NCBI GenBank assembly: GCA_903895995.1 | Contig: CAITVX010000035.1 | Span: 1-55,187, forward strand | Origin: an uncultured Actinomycetes bacterium | GTDB lineage: Bacteria; Actinomycetota; Actinomycetes; Nanopelagicales; Nanopelagicaceae | Length of the DNA: 55,187 bases | Direction: 5' to 3' | Shown here: positions 2,841 through 32,173 of the stretch, in pieces | Layout of the letters: each line of letters opens with the position of its first letter | Numbering within the stretch: the first letter of the stretch is position 1 | Notes under the pieces: model-generated | What the model was told of the DNA's origin: nothing | Database searches by the model: none | Seen by the model: only the letters and a program-made list of their open reading frames with translations | Translations under genes and position numbers: made by a program

Positions 2841-2896
2841 GTAGTTTGGTTAGCTTTAAAGTTAAATTGCTCAAAGCCCTGTCAGACCCCTCCCGA

Positions 2897-2902
2897 TAGA
2901 CT
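2897..2902 (+). promoter_or_regulatory. -10 box TAGACT, leaderless start of MFS-tmk
   Basis: TAGACT is followed by CCCCCT and then the ATG at 2909, giving the same 6-nt spacing as at 801. No Shine-Dalgarno sequence is present. Confidence 0.6.
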
Positions 2903-2908
2903 CCCCCT

Positions 2909-4945: not shown

Positions 4946-4948
4946 TAT
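4943..4948 (+). promoter_or_regulatory. Possible -10 box TAGTAT before holB
   Basis: TAGTAT overlaps the tmk stop codon and lies 7 nt before the holB ATG at 4956. It could give holB a leaderless internal promoter, but co-transcription from tmk is equally likely. Confidence 0.35.
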
Positions 4949-4955
4949 CTAGAGC

Positions 4956-7582: not shown

Positions 7583-7595
7583 TTTCGGCCTTTTT
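7576..7595 (+). terminator. Weak terminator-like hairpin after the S33 gene
   Basis: GGCC/GGCC (7576-7579, 7587-7590) forms only a 4-bp stem but is followed by TTTTT. The stop codon lies in the loop. Marginal as an intrinsic terminator. Confidence 0.35.
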
Positions 7596-7666
7596 ACGCT
7601 CGGATTTTGCCTCTCGATGTGGCCTGGGTGGCAGTGGATTGGTAAAGAGCACCCCTTGAGATGGTG

Positions 7667-7672
7667 CATTAT
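7667..7672 (+). promoter_or_regulatory. -10 box CATTAT, leaderless start of glyoxalase-like gene
   Basis: CATTAT lies 6 nt before the ATG at 7679, supporting that start over the ATG at 7661. A GCACC/GGTGC dyad (about 7650-7667) abuts it and could be an operator. Confidence 0.4.
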
Positions 7673-7678
7673 TTCCCT

Positions 7679-8314
7679 ATGCGCTTAGACCATATCTCAT
7701 ATGTTGCCAGCCACGACCAGATCTCAGATGTCGTCCAGAGAATCGGGGCTCAGCTTGAAACAGCATTTGTAGACGGTGGTATTCACCCTCGCTTTGGAAC
7801 ACGTAACTTCACTGCATCACTTCTCAACGGCCAATATGTTGAAGTTGTCTGCCCGCTTGATCACCCAGCAGCAGAAGCAACTCCATGGGGCAAGGCAGTA
7901 ACAAAGAAGGCGAATGAAGGCGGCGGATGGCTCACATGGGTCTTCTCAACAAGAGATATTGCACCAATCGAAGCAAAGTTTGGTCGCGCTGCAGTTGATG
8001 GTTCACGTAAGCGCCCTGATGGAACAGAACTTTCATGGAAGCAACTCGGTGTTATCGAGATTGCAGATCAGCCAGAACTTCCATTCTTCATCCAATGGCT
8101 CTCATCAGATCACCCATCAGTAGATGGAAAAGCTCATGCAGAGATCACAAAGATTGAGATTGCAGCTAAGGGCGAACTGGATGAGTCTTGGTTTAAAGAT
8201 GATATCCACGCAGCACTTCGCGATCTTGAAGTGAACTGGGTTGATCCATCAACAGTTGATGGCGAATCAGGAATTGTCTCCGTTGGTTTTAGTAACGGCG
8301 CAGTAATTTCCTAA
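7679..8314 (+). CDS. VOC/glyoxalase-like domain protein
   Basis: 211 residues if started at 7679, where the protein begins MRLDHISYVASHDQ, the usual opening of this glyoxalase-like family; the upstream ATG at 7661 adds only MVHYFP and lacks support. The N-terminal half has the beta-alpha-beta-beta-beta pattern of vicinal-oxygen-chelate proteins (MRLDHISY, RNFTASLLNGQYVEVVCPL). Enzymatic substrate is unknown. It converges on the MFS gene behind it; the two stop codons overlap within CTAA at 8311-8314. Confidence 0.75.
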   Translation: MRLDHISYVASHDQISDVVQRIGAQLETAFVDGGIHPRFGTRNFTASLLNGQYVEVVCPLDHPAAEATPWGKAVTKKANEGGGWLTWVFSTRDIAPIEAKFGRAAVDGSRKRPDGTELSWKQLGVIEIADQPELPFFIQWLSSDHPSVDGKAHAEITKIEIAAKGELDESWFKDDIHAALRDLEVNWVDPSTVDGESGIVSVGFSNGAVIS

Positions 8315-9513
8315 GCTTTACTTCGATCTGGAAGATGTAATCGAAGTGCTGCAATTGCAACAATGATGAGTCCGGTGACTAATCCGCCGATCCACCACCA
8401 TTGAAGATGCGCGCCTAATAAAACACCAGCGATAACTGGGCCCATGATGGTGCCAATAGTCCATGTGCTTGTAGATGCTGCGTTATAGCGGCCGCGTAAG
8501 TGTTCTGGTGCTAATTGATTAACGATTGAAGGCATGATCGGTGACCAGACCATCTCACCAAAGCCAAAGACAACTTGGCAGATAATAATGAGCGCGAGTG
8601 CTTGAGTTCTGATGATCCCGGCCATTGCGAGTGCGACCCATGCAGCTGCCCATAAGAGCGCTGCGATAGCGATCGATTTAGTGCGATCGAAGTTCGCAAG
8701 CTTCTTCACAAACCAGAGCTGGGCGACTGCGATCAAGAGAGTATTGGCAACAAATGCCCACGCGATATCAGAGGGTTGAACCTTTGCAATCATCGACGAG
8801 AATGCGGTGAAACCAACTTCAAGTTGGGCATAACCACATAAGACTGCACCGATTGAGATTAGCCAGACTTTGACGAAGACCTTGTCAGCTAAGACGCTCT
8901 TCCAACCATCGATACGGTCAGAGTTTATTTTGCGTTCTGCATGGGTGCGATGGCCAACTCCGCGAATGCTCATCACAATAAATAAGTAACCGAGGAATGA
9001 GATCCCATCGCCGCGATAGAGGTTGACGAAAGTTTGTGGGTGGGATGTGTCGACGATCAGTGATGCAACAAGTCCGCCAAGTCCCATCCCAAGGTTCATC
9101 ATTGCAAATTGGGATCCGAAGTAACGCGGACGTTGTTCTGGTGTGGTGAGCTCTGCCGCGATTGCACTCTGGCTTGGCCACATCGCAGCGCCACCTAATG
9201 CAGTGATTGTTGTGACAACGAGTGCGCTCGGAATGTTATGGATGTAACCCATGCTGCCGATTCCGAGTGCGCTAATAATGAGTGAGCCCATCAAGACGGG
9301 CTTAGGACCCCAGTGATCAATCAGTGAACCAAATATCGGTGATAGGCATAGCCCGACAACTGCGCCATAGGCAGAGATCAGACCGACGATTCCCGAAGGG
9401 ATTCCGCGTACTTGGTGGAGGTAGATAAAGAGGAATGAGAAGACGAGCCCGTTGCCGGTGCCAGAGATTAAAACCCCAAGCAGAAGTAATCGAATGGTTT
9501 TGGGGAGCTTCAC
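8311..9513 (-). CDS. MFS transporter (drug/sugar efflux type)
   Basis: 400 residues with about 12 predicted membrane spans, typical MFS length. Visible motifs are the loop 2-3 region SPIFGSLIDHWGPKPVL and a matching second-half loop. It starts at GTG 9513, which overlaps the upstream gene's stop as TAGTG, so it is probably co-transcribed with the Ig-repeat secreted protein. Substrate cannot be predicted. Confidence 0.8.
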   Translation of the reverse strand: MKLPKTIRLLLLGVLISGTGNGLVFSFLFIYLHQVRGIPSGIVGLISAYGAVVGLCLSPIFGSLIDHWGPKPVLMGSLIISALGIGSMGYIHNIPSALVVTTITALGGAAMWPSQSAIAAELTTPEQRPRYFGSQFAMMNLGMGLGGLVASLIVDTSHPQTFVNLYRGDGISFLGYLFIVMSIRGVGHRTHAERKINSDRIDGWKSVLADKVFVKVWLISIGAVLCGYAQLEVGFTAFSSMIAKVQPSDIAWAFVANTLLIAVAQLWFVKKLANFDRTKSIAIAALLWAAAWVALAMAGIIRTQALALIIICQVVFGFGEMVWSPIMPSIVNQLAPEHLRGRYNAASTSTWTIGTIMGPVIAGVLLGAHLQWWWIGGLVTGLIIVAIAALRLHLPDRSKA

Positions 9514-11408
9514 TACTTAACTATAAGGGTTTTCAAGTAGACGATCGTTGAACCCTGCAAGACCAGGAATATATGTTTTCCTGCAGTCAGAGTGTGTTTG
9601 CCGAGCGCGCTCTTCTTTCCATCGATCGTAAGAACAACGGTCTTCAACGTACTTGTCACAGTCACAACGCGCTTGAGGATACTTACTTTGATGATGGCAA
9701 GCTTTGCTGGCGCGACGGTTGGTTTAGCTGATGGAGTAGGGGTTGAGGAGGAGACAGGCATTGGAGTAGGAGTTGCGCTCGCTGTCGGCTTTGGAGTCGG
9801 GGTAGGCGTTGGTGTTGGAATCGGAGCTGGATTTACCGTAACAATTGCTGTGACGATATTGGATTGACCGAAGAGGCCACCTGGGTTTTGTACAGCAGTG
9901 ATTGTTGCGGTGCCGACCTTTACTCCAATAATCGAATTAGTAGAGATCTTTGCAACGCTTGGATCACTTGATGTGAAAGTCCAGCTTCCTTTGGAGTTCG
10001 ATGTTGGTGGAGCGATCACAATCGGAGTGTTATCAGCCATGATTGTGATCGGATTAAATGCACCGAGTGTTGGAACAATTCCATTGACTTGAACTGTAAA
10101 TGTGGTTGAAGCCGAGAGCCAATAAGTACTCGCTGCTTGAGTAGCAGTGATGGTTGCTGTTCCTGCCCCAACAATCTTCGCACTGCTTCCGTTAATGGCA
10201 ACGATATTTGAATCGCTAGATGTATATGTAATTGCCCCAGGTGAGGCAGAAGTTGGGGCGGTGATTGCGATATCTGGGTCACCCGCAACACGTAATAAGT
10301 TAGTCAGAGATGTAAGCACTGGAGTTCCCTGAATAGTGACTGTTGTTGTGATCGGGCCGACGGGGCTGAAGCTTCCAGATGATGCTTGATTTGCAGTCAA
10401 AGTAATGATTCCAGGCTTAGTGAGTGTGAGAACGCTGCCGGCGATAGATGCAATAGATGGATCACTGGATGAATACGACCATGTGCCTGGTGAACTTGAT
10501 GCAGGTGGGTTAAGAATAAAAGTCTTTGTTGATGTGGGTGAAAATGGCTGTGCGATTGCAGGCCATGCACTCACTGTCGGAGCAGTACCTGTAATTGTGA
10601 CCTTCATTGTCACCGTAATACTTGCATAGGGAGTTGCCCCTGCTTGGGTTGCAGAGATTGTTGTTGTTCCTATTGCGATCGGCGAGAGAGTCCGTGCACT
10701 CACTGTTGCAATAGATGGGTCACTTGATTCGAATGTCCACGCACCGGTTGATGTTGAAGATGGTGGGTTAAGAGTGATCGACGTGACGCTATCTCTATTG
10801 AGTGAGATATCACCGAAGGTCCCAAGCACTGGAGGGATTAGTGCGACGGTGAGCAAGAAGTTGAGCGATGTCGCTGCCCATGCTGCAGTCGCTGCTTGAT
10901 TGACAGTCACATAAATAGTTCCACCGTCGGTAAATTTAATGACATTGCCCGTGAGAGTTGCAAAAGATGCACCGTTGATCGAATAACTCCACGCGCCATT
11001 ACTTGTGCTTGATGGTGTTGGGATGGTAAATGTGTTCGCTGCGAACTGGACTGTCTGGTTTGGAATTTTCGCAATGACTGGAACGCCTTTTGTAACAGTT
11101 AATTCAGTAACGCGAGAGACTGTGTTGAATGCACCAGAAGCTGCCTGGACAGCGGTGATACGTGAGTAGCCGGCGCCAACAAGGGTTGCGATATCTCCGA
11201 TAACTGTTGCCACTAAAGGATTGGCTGCAGTGAAGGTCCACTTGCCAGGTGATGTCGAACTAGGGGGAATGAGGGTCACGGTCTTCTGATCAAAGGAGAC
11301 GACGATCGGCATCATGCTCCCGGCTTGGGTCAGCGTCGCCTGGGCCGAGGGTAATCCAGTCGAAATCAATGCAAAGGAGATGGTGGCAGCAGCAATGATT
11401 CGTTTCAT
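9513..11408 (-). CDS. Secreted protein with tandem bacterial Ig-like (Big) repeats
   Basis: 631 residues from ATG 11408, chosen because MKRIIAAATISFALISTGLPSAQA is a classic signal peptide and a GATAAT box lies 6 nt upstream; the frame stays open further upstream but has no signal there. The mature part is at least six Big-type repeats of about 85-90 residues, each with a PPSSTS-G-W(T/S)(F/Y)-S-P(S)-A-I pattern. They are followed by a Pro/Thr/Ser linker (PTPTPTPTPKPTASATPTP) and a short beta-rich C-terminal domain. It has no LPXTG motif or clear anchor. The fold suggests an extended surface or adhesion molecule. The low-complexity repeats resemble parts of the giant protein at 21985 and the 341-residue protein at 19988. 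Confidence 0.8.
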   Translation of the reverse strand: MKRIIAAATISFALISTGLPSAQATLTQAGSMMPIVVSFDQKTVTLIPPSSTSPGKWTFTAANPLVATVIGDIATLVGAGYSRITAVQAASGAFNTVSRVTELTVTKGVPVIAKIPNQTVQFAANTFTIPTPSSTSNGAWSYSINGASFATLTGNVIKFTDGGTIYVTVNQAATAAWAATSLNFLLTVALIPPVLGTFGDISLNRDSVTSITLNPPSSTSTGAWTFESSDPSIATVSARTLSPIAIGTTTISATQAGATPYASITVTMKVTITGTAPTVSAWPAIAQPFSPTSTKTFILNPPASSSPGTWSYSSSDPSIASIAGSVLTLTKPGIITLTANQASSGSFSPVGPITTTVTIQGTPVLTSLTNLLRVAGDPDIAITAPTSASPGAITYTSSDSNIVAINGSSAKIVGAGTATITATQAASTYWLSASTTFTVQVNGIVPTLGAFNPITIMADNTPIVIAPPTSNSKGSWTFTSSDPSVAKISTNSIIGVKVGTATITAVQNPGGLFGQSNIVTAIVTVNPAPIPTPTPTPTPKPTASATPTPMPVSSSTPTPSAKPTVAPAKLAIIKVSILKRVVTVTSTLKTVVLTIDGKKSALGKHTLTAGKHIFLVLQGSTIVYLKTLIVK

Positions 11409-11414
11409 TTTTAC

Positions 11415-11420
11415 ATTATC
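11415..11420 (-). promoter_or_regulatory. -10 box GATAAT, leaderless start of Ig-repeat protein
   Basis: On the minus strand GATAAT is followed by GTAAAA and the ATG at 11408. This fixes the start at the signal peptide. Confidence 0.6.
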
Positions 11421-11498
11421 GTCTCCTTCCCAGTGGAACCCAGCAGGCTCCCCAGCGGATGTGCTGTTACTTTGCCTAGCTTTTAGAAGCAAAGTGTT

Positions 11499-11504
11499 TA
11501 GAAT
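11499..11504 (+). promoter_or_regulatory. -10 box TAGAAT, leaderless start of esterase gene
   Basis: TAGAAT, then CCCTTT, then ATG at 11511. No Shine-Dalgarno sequence is visible. Confidence 0.6.
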
Positions 11505-11510
11505 CCCTTT

Positions 11511-12440
11511 ATGGCACTCCACCCTCAGGTAGTTAAATTCCTTGAAGCTCGCAAAGCCGCTGCGCTCACGATCGAAAATCCGACGCTTGAACAGATGCGT
11601 GCCGATCCATGGAATTGGCTCGATGTCGCGGGCCCTTTGGCCACTGATGTCGATACTCGACATACCTATGTGACCTCACCTACCGCCGATCTTCATACCG
11701 TTATCTATACGCCTAAGAATGTGAAGCCTGGAGCGCCAGCACTCGTCTATTTCCATGGTGGTGGATGGGTCTTTAGTTGGGTGCTGCGTTATGCGCCGCA
11801 GCTATCAAATATCGCAAGTGAATCAGGCGCCGTAGTTATTGGAATTAATTATCAGAAAGCCCCTGAACATCAATTCCCGATTCCATTTGATGATTGTTAT
11901 GCAGGGCTGCTCTGGGTTCGAGATCATGCGGCGGAACTTGGAATTGATCCAAAGAAGATTGGTGTGGGTGGAGATAGCGCTGGCGGAAATCTCGCTGCAG
12001 CGGTTGCACTTAAAGCTGGGCATACTGGCGATGTTGCGCTCGCTTATCAAGCGTTGATCTATCCATGTGTTGATACCAATTACACACGTCAGTCATATCG
12101 CGATCATGAGACTGGATATGGACTCGAAGCAGTGGGAATGAAATGGTGTTGGGATGCATATATTCCTGAAGCAGAACGTGCGAACCAATACGCCGTACCA
12201 ATGAAGGCTGATCGTTTTAATGGAGTTGCTCCAGCATTTGTGGCACTCGCCGAACATGACATCTTGCGAGATGAAGGCGTTGCATATGGCGAGAAGCTAG
12301 CTAGCGCAGGTATTTCTGTGACGATAAAAGAGTGGCCAGGAATGGTCCATGGCTTCTTTGGTCACGGTAGATATGTTGATGCTGCCTATGAGATCCGTTC
12401 GTGGATCAGCGCTCAGATCGTGAGCCACACACAAGGTTAG
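11511..12440 (+). CDS. HSL-type alpha/beta hydrolase (esterase/lipase)
   Basis: 309 residues, no signal peptide, so cytoplasmic. The hormone-sensitive-lipase family marks are complete: oxyanion motif YFHGGGWVFSW (about residues 80-90), nucleophile elbow GGDSAGGNLA, catalytic Asp in AEHDILRDEG and His in MVHGFFG. It would hydrolyse an ester or amide of a small carboxylic acid. The HGGGW arrangement also occurs in kynurenine formamidases, and a tryptophan-degrading gene pair without a formamidase lies 25 kb away, so that role is a speculative alternative. Transcribed alone from its own promoter. Confidence 0.85.
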   Translation: MALHPQVVKFLEARKAAALTIENPTLEQMRADPWNWLDVAGPLATDVDTRHTYVTSPTADLHTVIYTPKNVKPGAPALVYFHGGGWVFSWVLRYAPQLSNIASESGAVVIGINYQKAPEHQFPIPFDDCYAGLLWVRDHAAELGIDPKKIGVGGDSAGGNLAAAVALKAGHTGDVALAYQALIYPCVDTNYTRQSYRDHETGYGLEAVGMKWCWDAYIPEAERANQYAVPMKADRFNGVAPAFVALAEHDILRDEGVAYGEKLASAGISVTIKEWPGMVHGFFGHGRYVDAAYEIRSWISAQIVSHTQG

Positions 12441-19987: not shown

Positions 19988-21013
19988 ATGAAGCGCATCA
20001 TGACAGCAGTAGCAGCAGCTGCATTGGCAATCGGGTTTGCACCGCAAGCATTTGCGGCTAACACGCAAGTTATGTGGACCGGAGCGAATGGTGCGCCAGT
20101 ATCAGGAACTCCAGGAGTCGCTGCCGGAGATACTCTGCATTTTGTTCTTGGAAAGTTCCCAAGTGGACATGGGCTCTATGCTTACGAAGCTGTACAGCCT
20201 GCAGCAGGTACGCGTCCAACTCAGACTAGTGCCGCAATCCCAGCGCTAACGATGTGGATTAGCGCCGACCCAACTGCGCCTTCACACCCAACTCAAGTGC
20301 TCGCATTTACAATCGATAATGGAAATGCCTGGGGTGCCGACTGTGCACACCAGCAATGTGGATTATGGTTCCAATACGATCACACAAATGTGGCAGATAA
20401 GAGCGAAGATCAATTCGTGCCGTTTACTTTCATCGCGGCCCCACTTGCATCCGGTACGGCTCCAACTGGTGCGAATCCCGCCCCAGTGACGCTCGCAATC
20501 CCTGCGGATACGCTCGCGGTAACGGCCAATGGAGTGGCTCTTGTAGAGAATGTTCCGGGTTCAATTACATATCGCACACCACTTACCTTCGCAGCGAAAA
20601 CTGGCTCAGGTGTTGTGGTCACATTGAAGTCCTACACACCAGATCTCTGCCCAGTAAATGGTTTAGTAGTCGATGCGCTCAAAGGCACTGGTGTCTGCGA
20701 TATCGCAGTCATATCTACTGGTGATGCGATGCATGCACCAAAGACTGCACACTTCCCATTGATGCTCTCACCTGCAACACAATCCCTCACAACTACTACG
20801 GCCGCAGTGAAGGTTGGAAAGAGCGTTGCGCTTACTTCAACAACGGCATTCGGCGAGAAGATCACGTATAAGTCTTCTTCTAAGAATTGTTCCGTGAGTG
20901 GCGCTGCAGTAAAGGGTCTTAAAGCTGGTTCATGCACAATTAATGCAACTGCACCTGGGACTGCAAATTATGGTGCGTTAAAGGCGAGCGTTCTTGTAAC
21001 CGTTAAGAAGTAA
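19988..21013 (+). CDS. Secreted protein: neocarzinostatin-like domain plus Ig-like repeats
   Basis: 341 residues with signal peptide MKRIMTAVAAAALAIGFAPQAFA. The first about 150 residues contain the same C-x4-C-x6-DHT-x3-D-x-S-x-D-x2-VP-x2-F motif as the preceding protein (CAHQQCGLWFQYDHTNVADK), so the two are diverged paralogues. Two Ig-like repeats with internal cysteine pairs (CPVNG/GVCDIA and NCSV/SCTI) follow. It has a good Shine-Dalgarno (GAGAGAAGAG) and lies 23 nt after the previous stop, so it is the second gene of that transcript. It ends 3 nt from the convergent TetR gene. Confidence 0.75.
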   Translation: MKRIMTAVAAAALAIGFAPQAFAANTQVMWTGANGAPVSGTPGVAAGDTLHFVLGKFPSGHGLYAYEAVQPAAGTRPTQTSAAIPALTMWISADPTAPSHPTQVLAFTIDNGNAWGADCAHQQCGLWFQYDHTNVADKSEDQFVPFTFIAAPLASGTAPTGANPAPVTLAIPADTLAVTANGVALVENVPGSITYRTPLTFAAKTGSGVVVTLKSYTPDLCPVNGLVVDALKGTGVCDIAVISTGDAMHAPKTAHFPLMLSPATQSLTTTTAAVKVGKSVALTSTTAFGEKITYKSSSKNCSVSGAAVKGLKAGSCTINATAPGTANYGALKASVLVTVKK

Positions 21014-21016
21014 TTT

Positions 21017-21598
21017 TTAAACGAGGGCTCGGAGTCCAGCTAAGGCAAAAGTAGTTGCGCTCTGGATTTCGAGCTCTGCATCATTTCCGGCATCGATCCG
21101 GACAGATGCAGCATCAGTAACGCTCTGCAGGAATGCAGCAGCAGCCATCGGTTCCTTAATTCCAGTTTCAGTGAGCGCTTTACGAAGCGGAGCCATCATC
21201 TTGCGGTGGCCGAGTGCAATCTCTTCTTTGCGATAGTCAGGTGCCTGAATCGTATTGAGTGATTTCACGAGCATATGGCGACCATCTGCAACATAGCGAA
21301 GGCCTTCTGCAATCCACTGTTCGATCTGTTCAAAGGGATCTGTGACATCTTTAATGGCTACAGCGAGGCGATCGGTGTAGTAATCGAGCTCTTCAATAAC
21401 TAAATCAGCAACGAGATCGGCAGAGCTCTCAAAGTATTCATAGACAGATGAGCGCGCGAGGCCCGCTTTTGCAGCGACTGCTGCGACTGTAATTGCGCTA
21501 GCGCCTTCATTCATAGCGAGTTCAAGCGCAGCAGCCATCAATTGCTGACGGCGAAGTTCGCGGTGAGCTACAACTGAAGGGGCTTGAATCTTTGGCAC
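21017..21598 (-). CDS. TetR-family transcriptional regulator
   Basis: 193 residues from GTG 21598, chosen because minus-strand CATAAT-TCCAAG directly precedes it; a TTG at 21625 is possible but lies upstream of that -10 box. The N-terminal helix-turn-helix is typical of TetR (RRQQLMAAALELAMNEGASAITVAAVAAKAGLARSS region, then VYEYFESSADLVADLV). Its own -10 and start codon lie wholly inside the left copy of a 47-bp direct repeat. The ligand is unknown; it may regulate the adjacent heme genes or the YdcZ transporter that probably once stood next to it. Confidence 0.88.
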   Translation of the reverse strand: MPKIQAPSVVAHRELRRQQLMAAALELAMNEGASAITVAAVAAKAGLARSSVYEYFESSADLVADLVIEELDYYTDRLAVAIKDVTDPFEQIEQWIAEGLRYVADGRHMLVKSLNTIQAPDYRKEEIALGHRKMMAPLRKALTETGIKEPMAAAAFLQSVTDAASVRIDAGNDAELEIQSATTFALAGLRALV

Positions 21599-21635
21599 CT
21601 TGGAATTATGCCTTGCGCTTCTCAAAATAGCGACT
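21589..21635. repeat. 47-bp direct repeat, left copy
   Basis: Identical over 47 bp to 31236-31282, same orientation. It contains the tetR start and -10 box and, read on the minus strand, the last nine complete codons and stop of a YdcZ C-terminus (SRYFEKRKA). Just outside the repeat the left copy reads CTTGTA where the right copy has CTCGTC, both coding Leu-Val, so it looks like a remnant of a related ydcZ allele. Confidence 0.9.
21605..21610 (-). promoter_or_regulatory. -10 box CATAAT, leaderless start of tetR
   Basis: Minus-strand CATAAT-TCCAAG-GTG. In the right-hand copy of the repeat the TAA within this box is the stop codon of the YdcZ transporter gene, which points to the ancestral arrangement ydcZ-tetR. 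Confidence 0.6.
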
Positions 21636-21984
21636 TACAAGAGTGGTCGCTCACACCAACGCCTCCACTTGGTCTAGTTCACACCTCGTTGAGAGCTACA
21701 AAGCTAAGTGGTGCGGTGGTCAATGGACCGGCACAAGATCCTTTGCTGGAATACAAAGTGGCGCACGTTGGCGGCGAGCTTTTCGTTTTCAACGAAGTTT
21801 TACTCAGAAGTAAGGCCTTTTACGCTCAAATTCTTCTCAGTGGGGTGCCGATAGGCCCCCATATCGCAATCGATGCTCAATAAAATAGGGTGAGAAAAAA
21901 GGGTTATCCCCGCTTGAAGGCGCGTACCCTTAGAGGGGCCGCTGACCGTTGGATGGCCGGCGCTTTTTTTTGGGGGGGGCTGTC
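21636..21984. other. Gene-free 5' region of the giant surface-protein gene
   Basis: No credible gene was found here; a plus-strand frame starting at TTG 21584 begins in the repeat, has no start signal and resembles no known family. The region has a TGGGG/CCCCA hairpin (21841-21860), a -10-like TAAAAT (21881-21886), an AAGGGT/ACCCTT dyad (21899-21931) and the T8G8 tract. It may be a structured promoter/leader. Confidence 0.35.
21964..21979 (+). repeat. T8G8 homopolymer tract at the 5' end of the giant gene
   Basis: Eight T (21964-21971) followed by eight G (21972-21979), the longest mononucleotide runs noticed in the window. It lies between possible start codons TTG 21949 and ATG 21953 and the start GTG 21985. 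Adding one base would put ATG 21953 in frame with the gene; at the present length ATG 21953 is out of frame and TTG 21949 is in frame. This is the layout expected for slipped-strand phase variation, though it is not proven. Confidence 0.6.
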
Positions 21985-24900
21985 GTGGCACCTTCCGGCG
22001 TACGCAAAAGAATTGCGACGTTTTTATCTTCTTCACTTATTTTTGGGATGAGCTTATTTGTAGCTACCACCCAAGCAGGAGCAGTCTCTACCGTCACATC
22101 TGGGTCGACTGTCACCAATACTTATTCCAATACCGCGGCAGTTGAATATTTTACGGTCCCGGCAAATGTCACCTCGATCACGATTACTTTGAAAGGTGCT
22201 GAAGGCGGTCTCGGTGGCACAGATTCTGCTGGACGACCACCTGCAGGTGGTTACCAAGGTTTGGTATCAGGAACAATCTCTGTAACACCGGGGCAAGTCC
22301 TATCTGTTGGTGTTGGTAGCGGAGGAAAAGACTCAACTGCTGCAACAGTGTGCACGGCTGGAACTCAAGACTGGAGAGTAGCTGATACAAAGAATGCTGT
22401 TGGCGGAACAAATCCATTTGGTGGGTATGGTGGCGGTTTAGGAGGGTCAACTGGCCCTGATGGTTGTTCAGGTTATGGCGGCGCTGGCGGCGCTGCATCT
22501 GTCATTCGAATTGGTGCAAGTAACAATGATGCATCTGTAGCAACAATTGTTGCCGGTGGTTCTGGTGGTTCTGGTGGTTCGGGCCAATTCCCAGAAACAG
22601 TTGGCCAACTCTCTCTTTCAGCATTTGCGGCAAGAACAGATTCCACATCAACAAGTGGACAGCCTGGCCTTTATACGTCTTACGCCTGTTATAACGGAAT
22701 TCTTCCTAATTCCTTCCCTACTAGATCAGAGTCAAAACCGACATCCACTATGGGATATCGCATTACATCAGATCAACGATGTGATGGCGGTGGCGGTGCT
22801 GGTGGCGGTGGCGGTGCACAAGGTGGCGCGCAAGGTGTATTGCAATATGGAGCAGGCGTCTCTCGCCCTGCACCAGAATTTTTTGGTCACGGCGCGAATC
22901 CGGGACAAAATTCTACGAATAGTTTGAGTGGCCTAACTGCCAGCTATCAGTATTACGCAGATAACAATGCCAACGGCTCGGCTGTCATTAGCTACTCAAG
23001 CGGAGTTCCAAACCCACCCACGACAGTAGCCGGGAATCCCGGGGATAAGCTCGTCAATCTATATTGGACTGCGCCTGTAAACACTGGAAATAGTGCAATA
23101 ACTGGGTACCAAGTCCAATATTCGGTGAGCCCATACACCTCGTGGACCACGGCCTCTGGGTGCACTGGAATAGGCACCACCTGCACAATCTCATCCTTGA
23201 CCAATAGCACGGGCTATAAATTCCAAGTCGCGGCTATTAACGCGATTGGCACTGGCTCTTATTCATCTCCATCTGTGGTGATCACACCCGTTGCAGTGCC
23301 AACTGCTCCAACTGCACTTGTGGCGACCCCTAGTGATGGAACGATTTCGATCGCATTCACTGCGGCGACATCATCAATTTCGATTACAGGTTATGACTAT
23401 TCAATCAATAGTGGGTCTACGTGGAGTGCAAGTGGTTCAACATCAACACCAGTGTTGATCACAGGTTTGAGTAATGGCCTCGCATACACGGTAATACTTC
23501 GTGCTAATAACGCATCTGGAGCTGGTGCAGCATCAACCTCGGTGACCTCGACGCCACTGACAATCCCGGGTGCGCCGACAATTACAAGTGTTACCTCTGG
23601 TTCGAGCGGGACCTCCTTGATCGTTGCTTTCGTTGCAGGAAGCAATGGCGGATCGACGATTACCTCGTATCAATATGCAATCAGTACTGGTGCCAATAGT
23701 TCTAACTTTGGAACGCCAGTAGCAATTACAGGTACATCATCTCCATTTACAATTTCAGGTTTAAGCAATGGAACCTATTACACAGTCGAGTTGAGAGCTG
23801 TGAATACAGCAGGCAATGGACCATTTGCAGTGTTCAACAACAGCGTCACCCTTGCAGCACCAAATGCTCCGGTTCTTTCATCTCTTGTTGCCGGGAACCA
23901 GAGTATTCAGGTGAATTACACACCATACACATCATCAACGAACGGCGGATCCGCGATAACTAGCATCTCCTATTCATTAGATGCTGGAACTACATGGGTT
24001 AGCGCAGGAACTCTTACAAACCCATTTACTATCTCTGGGCTTACTAACGGAACTTCGTATGCAGTTTTGTTGAAGGCAACAAATGGAATAGGAAGTAGTT
24101 CGAACTCTAATTCACTTTCTGCGATACCAATTACTGTTCCAGGTGTGCCAACACAACTCAGTGTTACAGCCGCCCCTACATCGGCAGTCGTCTCATGGAC
24201 CGCCCCCGTATCTACCGGTGGTTCAGCTATAACAGCCTATACAGCCACTGCCTATAGCGCTTTAACTGGCGGGATTGCAGTAAAGAGTTGCACCACATCT
24301 GGGGCTCTTACGTGCACAATCACCGCCCTCACAAATGATACAAATTATTATGTTTCTGTCTTAGCAACTAATGCGCCTGCGGGAAATGGAGCTGAAGCAT
24401 CACCACGTATTTCTGTGATACCAGCTGCGCTACCAGGGGCACCAACTATTGGAACAATCACAGCAGGTAGCGCCTATCTCACCGTTCCCTTCACCGCAGG
24501 ATCAGCAGATACTCAAAATCCAATAACAAATTATCAATATTCAACCAATGCTGGTGTCTCATGGACAAATACCAATTCACTTCTCTCACCATTCACAATC
24601 TCTGGACTTACCAATGGAACTTCTTATAGTGTGATTTTGCGAGCAGTAAGTAATTTAGGTAACGGAACCACATCAAGCGCTGTGAGCGCAACCCCATATA
24701 CATTCCCAGATTCTGTGAATCCTGCAACTATCTCGTATGCCGCGGCCGTGAAGCAGGTGAATGCTTCATGGACTGCACCATTTAATGGTGGCTCACAGAT
24801 TCAAAATTATTACGTCTCTGTATTTAACGCATCTGTTGGTGGCACGCAGCTCACCGCTAATTCATGTACATCCACGGGCACTCCTGCAGCACCATCGTGT

Positions 24901-27900
24901 TTGATTACAGGCTTGACTGATGGAACGACATATTGGATTTCAATTCAGCCATATAACGCGGCAGGTTACGGAAACCGATCAGATCCTCGTGTTTCAGTTT
25001 TATCTGGAGTGAGTACAACAGTTGGTCTCACTTCGACTGCATCAACTATTAATTACAATGGGTCGGTCACATTAACGGCGACCGTTTCGACGGCATCTGG
25101 CACTCCAACAGGCACGATGAACTTCATGTCAGATGGCACAACAATCACTGGCTGTGGAACCCAGGCGATTACTTCACGGGTTGCGACATGCGTTGCAACT
25201 GGATTTACAGTTGGATCACATTCGCTCACCGCTGCCTACTCTGGTAGTTCCTCATATTCTTCTTCACTGAGTGGGACGACCGGGCTGAGCGTTAATGCCC
25301 TCGCCCAAACGATTACTTTTGGGGCCTTATCTGCAAATTCGCTGACTGCAAGCCCTATTTCTATATCGGCGACAGCTTCTTCTCTGCTGAGCGTCACCTT
25401 TACTTCATCGACTCCGAGCGTCTGTACCGTTTCTGGTACTTCGGTCACTCTCGCGGCAACCGGTACATGTTCAATCAATGCAGACCAAGCAGGCAGCGCC
25501 ACATATGCGAGCGCTCCCACGGTCCCTCAATCATTTACGGTGAATCCTGCTGCCCCAGGAATCTCCACACCTAGTATTTCAGGGACCGCGCAAGTTGGAA
25601 CTTCATTAAGTGTAAATGCCTTATCCACAACAGGAGTGGTTACGACAACGGGCTATGTGTGGAAAAAATCTGCGACATCTGGTGGCACTTACTCTCCAAT
25701 ATCAGGTGCGATTTCAAGTAGTTATACACCAAACGCAGCTGATGCTTCTTATTATCTAGAAGTGGTTGTAACCGTATCTAATGCCGGTGGAAGTGCAACG
25801 GCTACTTCACTGCCAACTAGTGCAGTGGCATTGATTCCGCAAACTGGATTAGCCATCACATCTTTGAGTGGAACTTTTGGAACTTCCCTTCCACTCGTCA
25901 CAAGTGGTGGTAATGGTTCTGGAACCGTTACTTTCTCGACCCCAACAACTGGGTGCTCAATAATCGGTGGCGCGCTCACTGTTACGGCACCAAAGAGTTG
26001 TTCTGTTACTGCGGTTAAAGATGCCCAAGGAAATTATGCAAGTGCTTCAACGACAAGTTCTGTTGTGATTGGGAAAGCAGCGTCCACGGTTGTCCTTACT
26101 CTTCCAAATAATTCTATCTACGCAAACCTCAACAAAACTGTTGTGATTAGCGCAACCACAAATACACCTGGTGTCGTCTCATTCTTGCTCGATGGAGCGG
26201 CGATGTCGGGTTGCTCTTCCATCTCTACCAGCGCCAATGTAGCTACATGTAGTTGGACTCCTGCTGTTGCACCAAGCAATGCAGCACTTACAGCAACTTT
26301 CACACCAACAGATTCAGTGGATTATCTGACTGCAACTGGTTCCTTGGCAGTCGCAGTAGTTGGTAGTTCTTTGGCGGGTGTGAACCCTAGTGATTTAACA
26401 AACCTAGCCAGCATCACAACGATTGATAATGTTACTAATCGAACCCTAACTGCTGATTCAGCTGATACACATTTAATACTGACCGTTCCAGGGGGCTCAC
26501 TTCCAATCGGATCACAAGTAACAATCTATTTAAATGCAAACTTTACGACTGCTAGAGCTGCAATTGCTTCAAGTAATTACCTACTCAATTTCATTATTGC
26601 GTGGAATGCTTCTGATAACACTGTTCCTTCAGCGTCGAAACCATTGACCTTGGCGATTACAAATGCAAGCATCTCTAAAGGAATGGCTGCATATGCAATT
26701 ATCGGAGGAGTTGCCACCTCAATAGGTAAAGCGACTGTTGCTGGTTCGATGACTGTGGACTTAGCACAGGATCCACTTGTAGTTGTTGCACCTACGGTGC
26801 CAGATGCTCCAACAGTTGTGACTGCCACATCAGGAGGAAACGGAAGTTCTACAGTAAGTTGGGTAGCACCTGATAACGACGGAGGAAAATCCATCTCTGG
26901 TTATACGGTAACTGCAAGTGGCAGTGGTGGCCAATCATGCACCACTTTTGGTAGCTCGCGATCATGTGCTGTGAGTGGCTTAACAAACGGAACCGCTTAT
27001 ACATTTACTGTTACGGCTCAAAATGTAGTTGGAACCAGCACTCCAAGTAGCCAATCTGCCGCAATCACTCCTAGCGACCCACCAGTTATCACTACACCTA
27101 GTTCTGGACTTACCGGAACCTACAATTCACCATTCTCTCTCTCGTTCTTTGCCACAAGTACAGCGGCTATTTCAAGTTATGCAGTGACTTCAGGCGGATC
27201 AGCATTGAGTGCACTCGGACTTTCACTCAACACAAATAGCGGAGTAATCACAGGCACACCTTCATCAATAGGAAATGCCACAATTGTCGTGCAAGTAACA
27301 GATGGAAATAATCAAAGTGCTGTTACATCCTCGTTTACCATCTCGATTGCCCCAGCCGCCTCAAGTATTACTTCATTCACTGTCCCATCGATGACTTATG
27401 GAAGTGCCGTCACATTAAGTGCTACTTCGAGTGTGGCAGGGCAAATAACCTTTAATGTAGGTGGATCCGCAATCTCTGGCTGTAGCAATGTAGTTGAAAA
27501 TGGCTCTAGAACTGCTACTTGTTCGTTCACGCCTACTAGTACCAACCTACTTAGCTTTACTGTGAATTTCACTCCTACATCTAGCAACTATTCAGCACTC
27601 ACAGGAGTCGGCACAACGACTTCGACTCCATCGCATGCTTCAAGCAGTACGAGTTTTACGATATCCAATGCTTCTCCAACCTTCGGTACCCAAATCACTC
27701 TCACGGCAGTAGTAACGACCGGGGCTACAGGAACTGTGCAATTTGTTGATGGCTCCAACAATGTTCTCTGCACTACTGGCAATCTTTCATCTGGCTCTGC
27801 AAGTTGTTTATGGACCCCTGACAATGTGACGACATATTCCGTGAAGGCCGTTTATGCGGGTGATAGCAACTATCTTAGCTCGGAATCAAGTGCCTCTAAT

Positions 27901-30900
27901 GTTGTAGTCGTTGGGGCGACCCTCCTTGCCCCAACCTCAATATCTGGTGCGGGTTCGAGCACAACCGAACTGACAGTTACCTTCACACAAGTCACACATG
28001 CGTCCTCGACAACTTTGAATCTCTATTCATCATCAACAGGCGGAAGTGCAGCTCAAACAATTGCAAACTTCACATCGGGGTCAACGGTAAGTGAGCTCAC
28101 AGCCAGCACTACGTATTACATCACTTTACAGAGTATCGGTTCTGGAAATTATGCGTCGAGCGATGAATCGTCACCACGAACATCGATCACAACCCTTGCC
28201 GCAGCAGTTACGCCAGTAATCGTCACTGCGCCATCTTCTACAACGGTAGTACTTGGTAATTCTGTTACTTTCACAGTATCGGCCACACGCGCAGACTCGG
28301 GCGTGCTCTCCTATCAATGGAAATTCAATGGCTTGGCTATTTCTGGGGCAACTAGCGCTACCTACACCTTCACGCCGCCATCAACGGCGAGCAGTGGTTC
28401 GTACACTGTTGACGTCACTAATACTTTAAACGCAACTGTCGCTGCCATCACATCAAGTGCAGCAATACTGAATGTGACAGGACCGGTTTCAATCGCTGCC
28501 CCAGCGACGGGCCTTACAGGAACATTTGGAGTGCCATATTCACTCGCCGTTGCGGGCGGCGGAGGAACTGCTCCACTTGTTTACTCATTGAATTCAGGGA
28601 CCCTTCCTGCCGGGCTAGCTTTAGATCCAAATACAGGATCTATTACAGGAACTCCAACAGCGGCCGCACCTTCAGGGCAGAGTATCACTGTAAAAGTTAC
28701 CGATCACAGTAACTCCACTGCAACTACTGCGCTCTTCACGATCGTCATTAACCTGGCAAACCAAGCGTTACTGGCATTCACTATTTCACCAGATAATGCT
28801 CCGTCAAATGGGAGTGCATTTACTCGTGCAGTGTCCCCAACTCTAACAAGTACGGGATCAGGTTCAGGATCTGTCACATATTCTGTGACATCCGGGACAG
28901 CGACAAATTGCGCGATCAGCAGCAGTACCTTGATTGGCACATTAAGTGCAGATACTTCTGGTACTTGTTTAATTACTGCTACTAAAGCAGGAGATACTAA
29001 CTATCTTGCTGCTACAAGCAGCGCAGTAACATTTATATTCACAAAGGCAGCGCAGAGTGCGTTAATAATTACCTCAACAAGTGGCAGCTTTGGTTCGCCC
29101 CTGGCATTAACAACATCGGGGGGAAGTGGAACTGGATCAGTATCTTTCGCAGTTGATACATCAGGTTGTCGTATTTCTGGTTCGACATTAAACGCTGATA
29201 TTTCTACAACCTGTTATGTAACGGCGACCAAGAGTGGTGACACCTACTATTTAAGTCAGGTCTCTTCACCCACTGGCGTGAATATTGGAATTGCTTCCCT
29301 TAATACTCCTGTTATAACGTCAGTGACTTCTGATGGGACAACTTCTGGATTAATTGTGGACTTTACTTCGGATCCGGCTTCATCTGGGTTTACTGCTTAT
29401 GTATATAGCCAGGCGGTCGGCGGTAGCGCACTTATTATTGTGCCTGCGTTTGCGACTGGGGAGACAATCACGGGTCTTAGTGCAAATACTACTTATTACA
29501 TTGGTGTGGTTGCAGGCGGTGGAGGCAGCTACGGTGACAGCGCAGAGTCGAATCGAGGAGTAGCTTCTACACTTGCTCGGGCAAGCGCTCCGGTGATCGA
29601 TCTACAGCCGGTTGCTATTAATGTAACAGTTGGTCAGCAAGAGTCGATGACTGTCACAGCTCATAGCACTGATTCCGGAACTCTCTCATACCAATGGAGT
29701 TTTGCGGGTAGCACTTTGCCCGGAGCAACAGGGGCGACGTACTCGTTTATCACCACATCATCACTTAACTCCGGTAACTATTATGTCGTTGTCACAAACA
29801 CGAAGAATGGTAGTTCAGCTTCAACCACATCCAATATTGCAGTTCTTGTCGTATCGGGACCGGTTCAAATCGCGACCCCATCTGCAGGACTTACAGCAAC
29901 GCTTGGATTCCCATACTCTCTAGCCCTTAACGCTTCAGGCGGAAGTGCGCCATTGAGGTACAGCATTGCTTCTGGTCAAAGTGCATTGACCTCTGCTGGC
30001 TTATCGCTCAATACGGCGACTGGCTTAATAAGTGGAACCCTCCTTGAGAGCGGAACAGTAACTTCTTCCATCCGAGTTACTGACGCAAATGGAGTGACAG
30101 CGACCACTAATCCATTCTCCATCACTGTCGATTTAGATCCAGATGCGACTATCCCAACATTCTCTACCCCTGTCGCAACTGCAGATGGCTTCACCGTGAA
30201 CGTAACTAATTACAGCGTGGCCTTCACGGCAACGGCAAGCGTAAGTATGGGCACAATTACCTCTGCAGTACCAGTTGGCTCTATCTGGCTTCTAACAGTT
30301 TCTGGTTTACTGGAAACGCAAACAGCAACGGTTACGGTAACAAATAGTGCGGTTGGTTACGTGAGTGAGTCTGCTTCAGTCACAGCTGGCCCACGCAGTG
30401 TGCCTACTCCACCCACACCAATACCAGATCCGGTGCAGCGATCATTCATTACATCGCTCTCTCCAACATTTGCAGTCGAAGGTGATTCACCGATTGTTGT
30501 GATTACTGGTGGATTTGTAGAGAAGATAGTTAATATTGATGTCGGTAGTAAGCGTCTTGAGCAGTTCTCGTGGATACAGACTCCGACTACATTAACCTTC
30601 ACAATCCCGTTCCGCGTACCTGGAAGTTATGCGATTCAGTTGTACAACGGAGCGGTACCTGTGCTTGCAGCTCAAATATTTGTTATTAACAAATTTGTTC
30701 CTATTCAACCAGTTATCACACCAGTTATCACACCAGTTATCGCACCGGTTGTGCCTACACCGGTTGTGCCTACGCCGATCGTCACTGTTCCAATCGCCCC
30801 CGTTCCAGTGGTGCCAGCTCCACAACCAACTGTTGCTCCTGTGCCGGTGCCAACTCATAACACGCAACCAACTTCAATTATGAAGAAGATCTCAACAGTG

Positions 30901-31206
30901 CAATTTGCATTGAACACTTATTACCTCAACGCAGCAGCCAAGGCGACGCTTCAAAAAGTTGCAGCAATCATTATGCAATCCCCGAATAAGGCTGTATTGA
31001 TCTATGGCAATACCGATATCCAAAAGGGAGTGGACAACGTCTGGCTCTCACATCAAAGAGCGATTTCAGCATTCACGTACATTCGAACATTCTTGAGTGG
31101 CACGACGATCAAACTTGGTTGGTTTGCGGCGACAAAACCAGCAGTCCTAGGGAACAGCCAAGCTGCCTATGCAAAAAATCGACGAGTCGAAATCTGGGTC
31201 AATTAA
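21985..31206 (+). CDS. Giant secreted surface protein: Gly-rich, FN3/Ig repeats, OmpA-like C-terminus
   Basis: About 3,073 residues from GTG 21985 (3,085 from TTG 21949). I prefer the GTG because it places VRKRIATFLSSSLIFGM directly as a signal peptide. Approximate order, numbered from TTG: glycine-rich domain 80-340 (GGGGAGGGGGAQGG); about seven fibronectin-III-like repeats 350-1015; Big3-type Ig repeats 1020-1600; another FN3 about 1615; putative-Ig repeats with (S/T)xGLT(G/A)T(Y/F/L) at 1715, 2180 and 2640; an IPT/TIG-like domain about 2830-2915; a Pro-Val-Thr linker; and an OmpA-like peptidoglycan-binding domain 2978-3085 ending NRRVEIWVN. Probably a long cell-wall-attached adhesin. It is the only gene in the repeat-bounded segment. 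Confidence 0.85.
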   Translation: MAPSGVRKRIATFLSSSLIFGMSLFVATTQAGAVSTVTSGSTVTNTYSNTAAVEYFTVPANVTSITITLKGAEGGLGGTDSAGRPPAGGYQGLVSGTISVTPGQVLSVGVGSGGKDSTAATVCTAGTQDWRVADTKNAVGGTNPFGGYGGGLGGSTGPDGCSGYGGAGGAASVIRIGASNNDASVATIVAGGSGGSGGSGQFPETVGQLSLSAFAARTDSTSTSGQPGLYTSYACYNGILPNSFPTRSESKPTSTMGYRITSDQRCDGGGGAGGGGGAQGGAQGVLQYGAGVSRPAPEFFGHGANPGQNSTNSLSGLTASYQYYADNNANGSAVISYSSGVPNPPTTVAGNPGDKLVNLYWTAPVNTGNSAITGYQVQYSVSPYTSWTTASGCTGIGTTCTISSLTNSTGYKFQVAAINAIGTGSYSSPSVVITPVAVPTAPTALVATPSDGTISIAFTAATSSISITGYDYSINSGSTWSASGSTSTPVLITGLSNGLAYTVILRANNASGAGAASTSVTSTPLTIPGAPTITSVTSGSSGTSLIVAFVAGSNGGSTITSYQYAISTGANSSNFGTPVAITGTSSPFTISGLSNGTYYTVELRAVNTAGNGPFAVFNNSVTLAAPNAPVLSSLVAGNQSIQVNYTPYTSSTNGGSAITSISYSLDAGTTWVSAGTLTNPFTISGLTNGTSYAVLLKATNGIGSSSNSNSLSAIPITVPGVPTQLSVTAAPTSAVVSWTAPVSTGGSAITAYTATAYSALTGGIAVKSCTTSGALTCTITALTNDTNYYVSVLATNAPAGNGAEASPRISVIPAALPGAPTIGTITAGSAYLTVPFTAGSADTQNPITNYQYSTNAGVSWTNTNSLLSPFTISGLTNGTSYSVILRAVSNLGNGTTSSAVSATPYTFPDSVNPATISYAAAVKQVNASWTAPFNGGSQIQNYYVSVFNASVGGTQLTANSCTSTGTPAAPSCLITGLTDGTTYWISIQPYNAAGYGNRSDPRVSVLSGVSTTVGLTSTASTINYNGSVTLTATVSTASGTPTGTMNFMSDGTTITGCGTQAITSRVATCVATGFTVGSHSLTAAYSGSSSYSSSLSGTTGLSVNALAQTITFGALSANSLTASPISISATASSLLSVTFTSSTPSVCTVSGTSVTLAATGTCSINADQAGSATYASAPTVPQSFTVNPAAPGISTPSISGTAQVGTSLSVNALSTTGVVTTTGYVWKKSATSGGTYSPISGAISSSYTPNAADASYYLEVVVTVSNAGGSATATSLPTSAVALIPQTGLAITSLSGTFGTSLPLVTSGGNGSGTVTFSTPTTGCSIIGGALTVTAPKSCSVTAVKDAQGNYASASTTSSVVIGKAASTVVLTLPNNSIYANLNKTVVISATTNTPGVVSFLLDGAAMSGCSSISTSANVATCSWTPAVAPSNAALTATFTPTDSVDYLTATGSLAVAVVGSSLAGVNPSDLTNLASITTIDNVTNRTLTADSADTHLILTVPGGSLPIGSQVTIYLNANFTTARAAIASSNYLLNFIIAWNASDNTVPSASKPLTLAITNASISKGMAAYAIIGGVATSIGKATVAGSMTVDLAQDPLVVVAPTVPDAPTVVTATSGGNGSSTVSWVAPDNDGGKSISGYTVTASGSGGQSCTTFGSSRSCAVSGLTNGTAYTFTVTAQNVVGTSTPSSQSAAITPSDPPVITTPSSGLTGTYNSPFSLSFFATSTAAISSYAVTSGGSALSALGLSLNTNSGVITGTPSSIGNATIVVQVTDGNNQSAVTSSFTISIAPAASSITSFTVPSMTYGSAVTLSATSSVAGQITFNVGGSAISGCSNVVENGSRTATCSFTPTSTNLLSFTVNFTPTSSNYSALTGVGTTTSTPSHASSSTSFTISNASPTFGTQITLTAVVTTGATGTVQFVDGSNNVLCTTGNLSSGSASCLWTPDNVTTYSVKAVYAGDSNYLSSESSASNVVVVGATLLAPTSISGAGSSTTELTVTFTQVTHASSTTLNLYSSSTGGSAAQTIANFTSGSTVSELTASTTYYITLQSIGSGNYASSDESSPRTSITTLAAAVTPVIVTAPSSTTVVLGNSVTFTVSATRADSGVLSYQWKFNGLAISGATSATYTFTPPSTASSGSYTVDVTNTLNATVAAITSSAAILNVTGPVSIAAPATGLTGTFGVPYSLAVAGGGGTAPLVYSLNSGTLPAGLALDPNTGSITGTPTAAAPSGQSITVKVTDHSNSTATTALFTIVINLANQALLAFTISPDNAPSNGSAFTRAVSPTLTSTGSGSGSVTYSVTSGTATNCAISSSTLIGTLSADTSGTCLITATKAGDTNYLAATSSAVTFIFTKAAQSALIITSTSGSFGSPLALTTSGGSGTGSVSFAVDTSGCRISGSTLNADISTTCYVTATKSGDTYYLSQVSSPTGVNIGIASLNTPVITSVTSDGTTSGLIVDFTSDPASSGFTAYVYSQAVGGSALIIVPAFATGETITGLSANTTYYIGVVAGGGGSYGDSAESNRGVASTLARASAPVIDLQPVAINVTVGQQESMTVTAHSTDSGTLSYQWSFAGSTLPGATGATYSFITTSSLNSGNYYVVVTNTKNGSSASTTSNIAVLVVSGPVQIATPSAGLTATLGFPYSLALNASGGSAPLRYSIASGQSALTSAGLSLNTATGLISGTLLESGTVTSSIRVTDANGVTATTNPFSITVDLDPDATIPTFSTPVATADGFTVNVTNYSVAFTATASVSMGTITSAVPVGSIWLLTVSGLLETQTATVTVTNSAVGYVSESASVTAGPRSVPTPPTPIPDPVQRSFITSLSPTFAVEGDSPIVVITGGFVEKIVNIDVGSKRLEQFSWIQTPTTLTFTIPFRVPGSYAIQLYNGAVPVLAAQIFVINKFVPIQPVITPVITPVIAPVVPTPVVPTPIVTVPIAPVPVVPAPQPTVAPVPVPTHNTQPTSIMKKISTVQFALNTYYLNAAAKATLQKVAAIIMQSPNKAVLIYGNTDIQKGVDNVWLSHQRAISAFTYIRTFLSGTTIKLGWFAATKPAVLGNSQAAYAKNRRVEIWVN
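30709..30774 (+). repeat. Tandem repeats in the proline linker of the giant gene
   Basis: Three 12-bp units of CCAGTTATCACA (the third with G for A) at 30709-30744, then two 15-bp units CCGGTTGTGCCTAC(A/G) at 30745-30774. They encode PVIT and PVVPT units just before the OmpA-like domain, and copy number could vary without a frameshift. Confidence 0.85.
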
Positions 31207-31235
31207 CGCTCACAAAGTGGGGATTTAGGCCCAAG

Positions 31236-31282
31236 TCTTTGGCACCTTGGAATTATGCCTTGCGCTTCTCAAAATAGCGACT
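31236..31282. repeat. 47-bp direct repeat, right copy
   Basis: Identical to 21589-21635. This copy is the genuine 3' end of the YdcZ gene plus 17 bp beyond its stop. It also carries an orphan copy of the tetR -10 box and GTG, which here would read only a six-codon frame (V-P-K-T-W-A-stop). Confidence 0.9.
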
Positions 31283-32173
31283 GACGAGGATCGATCCTAG
31301 AGTCATGAATACGCCTGTAACGAGATATCCGCTCAAGGTGGTGTTCGCAGCAGGCGCTAACCAGTCGAGAAGAAGAGCCCCTATGAGTTGGCCAGTAACG
31401 CTTCCGAGGACAAAGTTCAAGATTCCCATGTGCTTCACAGCAAAGGCAGATGTAGCGATGAAGATAACGCCGATCGGTCCACCGAGATAGATCCACGGAT
31501 TACTTGGCAGGTGCCCGATGCTTCCACCGTTACTCAAGTTAAATGCAAGTGCAATTGCGAGAACGAAAGTTCCCATTAAGAAGTTTAAGAATGCTGTCGC
31601 AAGAGGGCGTGTAGCTACAACATTGACGCGGCCATTAAATGCTTGCTGGAATGAGATAACAACTCCAACTATCAGCGTTATAACGACTGCAAGAGCAGAG
31701 AAGGTTGCATGGGCTAAATCTGGCAAGACTGCAATAGTGACTGCAAAGAGAGTCATCACCGCAGCAAATATTCTTGGGATAGTGATGTGCTTTTTGCCAG
31801 CAGGACCAATTCCTAATTTATCTACGAGAAGTGAAGCAACTGTCTGCCCACCAACTGTTGCAATTGTAAATATTGCGACACCAAGTTTTGGAACAGTGAT
31901 CGATTGAGTTGCAACAAAGAAGCCGCCACCCATTCCACCAATAATCTCCCAGCGCTTCAAGCGACCAGATTGCACTGCCTTCCAAATGTTGCGAAGTCCC
32001 TGACGCTCTACCTTTAAGCCAAAGCAGAGAATGAAGAGGACGATCCAACCACTACCAAAGGAGATGATTGCAGCAGCTAAACCATTATGAATATCTTTAG
32101 AGAGCTGACCATTAAGGCGTGACTGAATGGCTGTGAGCGCTCCGACAAAGACTGCCAGTAGTGGATATATCAC
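31253..32173 (-). CDS. YdcZ-family (DMT superfamily) membrane transporter
   Basis: 306 residues made of two homologous halves of about 150 residues, each with four to five hydrophobic helices, the layout of tandem DUF606/YdcZ proteins. The first half has SRLNGQLSKDIHNGLAAAI and the second QQAFNGRVNVVATRPLATA, the paired N-G motifs of this family. It starts at GTG 32173, overlapping the LCP stop as TAGTG. Its last codons lie in the right 47-bp repeat. Substrate unknown. Confidence 0.82.
   Translation of the reverse strand: MIYPLLAVFVGALTAIQSRLNGQLSKDIHNGLAAAIISFGSGWIVLFILCFGLKVERQGLRNIWKAVQSGRLKRWEIIGGMGGGFFVATQSITVPKLGVAIFTIATVGGQTVASLLVDKLGIGPAGKKHITIPRIFAAVMTLFAVTIAVLPDLAHATFSALAVVITLIVGVVISFQQAFNGRVNVVATRPLATAFLNFLMGTFVLAIALAFNLSNGGSIGHLPSNPWIYLGGPIGVIFIATSAFAVKHMGILNFVLGSVTGQLIGALLLDWLAPAANTTLSGYLVTGVFMTLGSILVSRYFEKRKA

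Follow-up and report, generated by a model that had tools for sequence, protein, structure and literature searches.

A giant surface-protein gene between ydcZ and tetR as a probable horizontally inserted variable segment in an uncultured actinobacterium

Sequence comparison of the window (the whole stretch of 55,187 nt analysed here) supports the interpretation of a single giant gene, encoding a predicted surface protein, as a horizontally inserted variable segment between ydcZ and tetR, two genes that were ancestrally adjacent (Table 1). The locus looks like a case of surface-gene swapping between species that is driven by recombination and involves no classical mobile element.

Table 1. Features of the ydcZ-tetR locus, in window coordinates.
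Feature	Position	Strand	Description
Inserted segment	21636..31235		9,600 bp; sister species lack it at the orthologous site
Left 47-bp copy	21589..21635		Remnant of the 3' end of ydcZ, spacer and the initial 10 nt of tetR
Right 47-bp copy	31236..31282		Genuine 3' end of ydcZ, spacer and the initial 10 nt of the former tetR start
Leader, left repeat to giant gene	21636..21948	+	Lies in 21636-22051, where the window and G022 differ by 1 substitution and 1 indel
Giant gene for a predicted secreted surface protein	21949..31206	+	3,085 aa from TTG; fn3 x6, Big_3_5, Ig_3, Pro-rich stretch, OmpA-like C-terminus
Predicted OmpA/Pal-like peptidoglycan-binding domain	30877..31188	+	GNTD...LSHQRA motif positions kept
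Trailer, giant stop to right repeat	31207..31235		29 bp
ydcZ-type DMT transporter, intact	31253..32173	-	Pfam DMT_YdcZ; orthologues 82-86% aa in G083/G055/G065
tetR-family regulator, intact	21017..21598	-	Probable start GTG 21598; second copy in G022 98% identical
Gene next to tetR, secreted protein	19988-21013	+	3' end 20922..21013 is the last stretch common with the G022 copy

The segment is bounded by two copies of a 47-bp direct repeat, which sequence comparison showed to be perfectly identical, with a match that extends to 53 nt at 96%. The copies are 9,647 bp apart and enclose exactly 9,600 bp with one long ORF only (~9.3 kb); the coordinates, the spacing and the single ORF given in the original prediction were all verified. 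No exact direct repeat in the 55-kb window is longer than the 47-mer, the runner-up measuring 22 bp, and in the 1.36-Mb, 39-contig genome assembly the 47-mer was found at these two sites only. The longest repeat in each of 30 order-3 Markov shuffles of the window was 14-19 bp, which excludes a chance origin, since the shuffles reached 19 bp at most. Read from ydcZ to tetR, the repeat is composed of AGTCGCTATTTTGAGAAGCGCAAGGCATAATTCCAAGGTGCCAAAGA, which holds the last ydcZ codons (SRYFEKRKA and the stop), 7 nt, and then GTGCCAAAGA, the start of tetR. No inverted core was found within the 47-mer, and an inverted-repeat recombinase core was rejected for that reason.

The direct repeats at both ends of the segment recreate the end of a target gene, with ydcZ intact on the right and tetR intact on the left. 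As had been predicted, ydcZ truly ends in the right copy, which aligns with the sole copy that three sister species (G083, G055 and G065) have at their empty site. The left copy had been described as containing both the start and the -10 box of tetR; the start was confirmed, but the -10 box was unsupported by a sigma-70 consensus scan, which actinobacterial promoters may escape. The tetR gene most likely starts at the GTG in 21598-21596, since G137 and G125 have ATG at the aligned codon. With this start the gap from the ydcZ stop to the tetR start in the restored state is 7 nt; the claim that removal of the segment makes the two genes adjacent was upheld, and the distance of 12 nt given with it was corrected. 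The Leu-Val codons beside the left repeat differ as claimed (CTTGTA vs CTCGTC), and the difference is common to the G022 copy described below. The ydcZ relic on the left reaches only ~6-12 nt past the 47-mer, and over such a length the recoding is by itself a weak sign of integration. The right junction, from the giant 3' end through the 47-mer into ydcZ, was found in this assembly only.

The orthologous site is empty in G083, G055 and G065, which are syntenic with the window on both sides and in which ydcZ is joined to tetR with a single equivalent of the 47-mer. In blastn searches and alignments, the window up to 21637/21642 joined the sequence from 31236 onward as one continuous block in these species, at 73-80% nucleotide identity. 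YdcZ and TetR were searched against 151 genomes of the family, and the two genes were also found adjacent, about 0-80 nt apart, in more species of this genus (G007, G143, G137, G125 and, at its native locus on contig C7, G022) and in two genomes of other genera (G120 and G066); locus L153 represents an additional species with this adjacency. This adjacency across sister species and other genera indicates that the empty site is ancestral and that the giant gene is a derived insertion, in agreement with the ancestral state proposed in the original prediction. The ydcZ gene appeared truncated in G034 and G007, an effect of contigs ending at that point.

Other genes occupy the same gap in several relatives. 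A Flavodoxin_2 gene, encoding a flavodoxin-fold reductase, lies between ydcZ and tetR in G089, G131, G071, G119, G034 and G095 and at loci L158 and L160; in G021 the gap holds a thioredoxin/DsbD-like gene. All of these cargo genes are divergent from tetR and transcribed towards ydcZ. None of the six flavodoxin-type loci examined had a repeat of at least 9 bp between the ydcZ end and the tetR start, indicating that the gap takes single genes repeatedly and that the 47-mer is no general feature of it. Alignment in relatives thus revealed empty sites and alternative cargo, and not a segment carried by all of them. At the gene beside tetR (loci L035 and L037), G055 and G065 were seen by eye to be near-identical over several hundred bases and clearly diverged before them, which suggests that the two species recombined recently at this locus.

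A copy of the left end of the insertion was found in another species, the metagenome-assembled genome (MAG) G022. Besides its own ydcZ-tetR pair on contig C7 (57% and 75% amino acid identity, respectively), G022 has a second tetR at the start of contig C21, which is 98% identical to the window TetR at the amino acid level and is preceded by the left repeat, the leader and the 5' end of the giant gene. The match, located at a contig edge of the MAG, spans window positions 22051 to 20922 with 96% identity over 1,131 bp and then ends; beyond it, C21 has a different gene context from the window, where an MFS transporter is encoded along with a cluster of heme genes. The tetranucleotide usage of C21 is consistent with that of the other G022 contigs. 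C21 may conceivably be a chimeric contig, because the piece lies at the edge of a MAG contig and searches of G022 for the remainder of the giant gene found nothing.

Divergence between the window and G022 is uneven along this match. The leader and giant 5' end differ by 1 substitution in 416 bp, plus one indel (99.8% identical by substitutions), the left 47-mer by 3 of its 47 positions (Fisher p = 0.004 vs the leader), and tetR by 30 of 572 positions, among which stretches of 191 and 86 bp show no difference. Such mosaic divergence points to homologous recombination between species. The three differences in the repeat are compatible with decay in G022 as well as with a gene conversion in the window genome, in which the right copy overwrote the left one. 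The left copy of G000 agrees with its own right copy and not with the left copy of G022; this counts against the insertion route proposed below, and needs gene conversion, another donor or decay in G022.

The heme biosynthesis cluster adjoining the second tetR of G022 was located at positions 2593-11966 of locus L070 (contig C21). Ferrochelatase was found in one of 32 genomes of the genus, G022 alone, and a related order has been described as heme auxotrophic (PMC10202952).

The giant gene probably starts at the GTG at 21985, which would give the protein an N-terminus resembling a signal peptide; a hydrophobic N-terminal segment was recognized by eye. Pfam searches detected six fn3 domains, Big_3_5 and Ig_3, and a Pro/Val-rich stretch is also present. 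The C-terminal domain matches the P6/Pal family in phmmer searches (best E value 1.4e-8), with the GNTD and LSxxRA positions kept, and its Pfam OmpA score of 25.9 bits is slightly below the cut-off of 27.2. With both a signal peptide and a peptidoglycan-binding domain predicted from its sequence, the protein is probably secreted and held on peptidoglycan through the OmpA-like C-terminus, an anchoring suggested by the relationship of this domain to the P6/Pal family. No recombinase or integrase domain was found in 21636-31235, which holds one long gene only, in accordance with the absence of an integrase noted at the outset.

Several possible signs of a foreign or mobile origin were considered and discarded. 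The GC content of the giant gene (46-50%) equals that of the flanks. Its tetranucleotide usage deviates, and so does that of one giant gene of G065, suggesting that the deviation is at least partly due to the composition of repeat proteins. The giant gene and tetR had no match in viral contigs, the segment had none in phages or plasmids, and tRNA-targeted integration was rejected, as no tRNA was found in the window closer than 10 kb to the insertion.

The leader of the giant gene showed some features of possible regulatory interest. A terminator-like hairpin followed by T8 at 21947-21971 could act as an attenuator. A T8 tract followed by G8 lies at 21964-21979, a few bases upstream of the probable GTG start, and the tract lengths are identical in G022; slippage in these tracts could vary the expression of the giant gene. 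A riboswitch was rejected, as the leader had no Rfam match and folded no better than its shuffles.

We consider it rather likely that the giant gene was inserted horizontally into the 7-nt ydcZ-tetR gap by homology-facilitated illegitimate recombination, a process known in transformable bacteria (PMC2884548). From the sequences compared we infer both this mechanism and the direction of transfer. The incoming DNA would already have been arranged as giant gene, leader, short relic of the ydcZ 3' end and tetR, as at the G022 contig edge. On one side it would have paired with the resident tetR and ydcZ end by homologous recombination, and on the other an illegitimate join would have formed ~10 nt inside the start of the recipient tetR; the outcome would be a ydcZ intact with one 47-bp copy and a tetR intact with the other. 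Homology on one side is the most economical account, and it explains the content of the repeat, the hybrid Leu-Val codons, the missing recombinase and the mosaic flank. Recombination between the 47-bp copies could maintain their identity and, in principle, also remove the segment. Since the product appears to be secreted and is probably held on peptidoglycan, the event would swap a cell-surface structure. In well-studied species, repeats border 10-18% of small variable segments (PMC2884548).

The original prediction had left the choice between a minimal cargo island and an allele swapped by recombination; swapping is favoured here, and the island less so. The 47-bp repeat is short for RecA and could also be an att site, and a minimal island integrated site-specifically, in which the 47-mer would serve as att site at the ydcZ 3' end and a recombinase would act in trans or have since been lost, would leave a perfect repeat that recreates a gene 3' end between two intact neighbours. 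A 20-bp repeat around a [tetR, giant] pair, by tRNA-Val and mutM in G065 and G055, is also compatible with such an island. We nevertheless regard this origin as unlikely, and found nothing that positively supports the 47-mer as the att site of an integrating element. The 9.6 kb lack an integrase, the repeat lacks an inverted core and the flavodoxin-type cargo sits in the same gap without a repeat, which, together with the mosaic divergence, argues for recombination over site-specific integration; in addition, the clean secA-DUF6459 insertion of G065 has no repeat, the G022 copy runs beyond the repeat and through tetR to 20922, and phage, plasmid and viral-contig matches are all absent. The giant gene could also have come to lie between two 47-mers through a single crossover with a circularised fragment, or after the ydcZ-tetR region had been duplicated and a deletion had followed. 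Each of these routes yields the observed left and right copies enclosing the gene, but they require a circle or a larger duplication, of which no trace was found, and the left relic extends just ~6-12 nt past the 47-mer, so that both seem quite unlikely.

An assembly artefact, in which a giant gene from elsewhere was joined via the 47-mer during metagenome assembly, deserves attention because an assembly of 39 contigs resembles a draft or a MAG and a 47-bp repeat can mislead short k-mer assemblers. It is nonetheless very improbable: an independent MAG has the left junction too, at 96% identity, so that this is no copy of the window contig, and both flanks are syntenic with three species. We give the least credence to the presence of the giant gene in a common ancestor with precise deletion in the sister species. 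Deletion by recombination between the direct repeats would yield exactly the empty sites observed, but parallel precise losses would be required in many species and genera with adjacent ydcZ and tetR, and the still identical 47-mers, with the 99.8% identity by substitutions of the G022 leader and giant 5' end, point to a recent event.

Surface variation in lakes is usually tied to phage escape. Surface-structure genes have been found to be hypervariable in lake bacterioplankton (PMC9426551), and replacement and additive flexible islands have been described in aquatic bacteria, the additive ones being able to adjoin tRNA-derived direct repeats (PMC10872708, PMC4033161). The present locus shares with these islands strain-variable DNA between conserved genes and surface functions; in contrast, the window insert is one gene, with no tRNA or mobile-element gene, and its repeat consists of the 3' end of a protein gene and the start of the next gene. 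It also resembles the small variable segments of Touzain et al. 2010 (PMC2884548) in being a dimorphic locus with one segment present or absent between backbone genes, although that study stresses segments of 20-500 bp vs the 9.6 kb found here, and the present comparison is between species. ICEs and genomic islands with att repeats likewise have a perfect direct repeat through which the target gene regains its 3' end, but the window insert has neither an integrase nor att-like symmetry, and the repeat is absent from other cargo in the gap. Apilactobacillus kunkeei, with a 1.5-Mb genome, is reported to encode very large secreted repeat proteins as well, Giant1-5 (PMC12863079); these are products of five consecutive genes, unlike the single genes described here, which are found at scattered variable sites and often by a divergent tetR, and the likeness concerns size, secretion and repeats.

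Among the papers searched, none on giant-gene insertions in this actinobacterial group was found. The locus is of a known kind, a horizontally inserted variable segment, and what is unusual is how clearly the empty, the alternative and the foreign state are all represented. If the interpretation is correct, a streamlined bacterium would gain a whole surface structure by means of one gene, without mobile-element machinery and with its neighbours intact. The locus would also provide a concrete site for measuring surface-gene turnover, and repeat-mediated loss, in lake metagenomes.

About 20 long genes were scanned in the window and in the loci of relatives, several of them cut by contig ends. 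Flanking repeats were detected at two of these genes, with 47 bp in the window and 20 bp on contig C5 of G065, and a general rule linking giant genes to repeats was rejected. Contig C6 of G065 carries a tetR and a giant gene of 1,766 aa (locus L109, 6995-13086) as a precise insert between secA and what we take to be a DUF6459 gene, in a gap of just 4-26 nt in G055, G083, G000, G007, G160 and G101; no direct repeat was found around this insert. On contig C5 of G065, a second pair of this type sits between tRNA-Val and a presumable mutM, flanked by the perfect 20-bp repeat TAAGTCGTTGACACTTCGGG, and the G055 orthologue, which is split over contigs C47 and C81, likewise has both copies of this repeat, at its two ends; the loci concerned in the two genomes are L118, L133 and L122. 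The names DUF6459 and mutM are our assignments from sequence motifs and gene order. The mutM locus of G083 was rejected as a clean empty site for the C5 module, since other genes are located there. Taken together, the two G065 loci and the window indicate that giant genes are variable inserts of one or two genes, with repeats as an occasional feature. A more speculative and doubtful idea is that freshwater actinobacteria of the genus may carry undescribed recombinase-free cassettes, each with one giant surface-protein gene with or without a divergent tetR, which would travel as units from one narrow intergenic gap to another and from species to species, leaving variable direct repeats. Giant genes rich in fn3 domains are often back to back with tetR, as in the window, on contig C6 of G065, on contig C5 of G065 with its G055 orthologue, and in G157. 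Three of the TetRs adjacent to giant genes are alike, two being 34-37% identical to the first, and the window TetR is 25% identical to the first.
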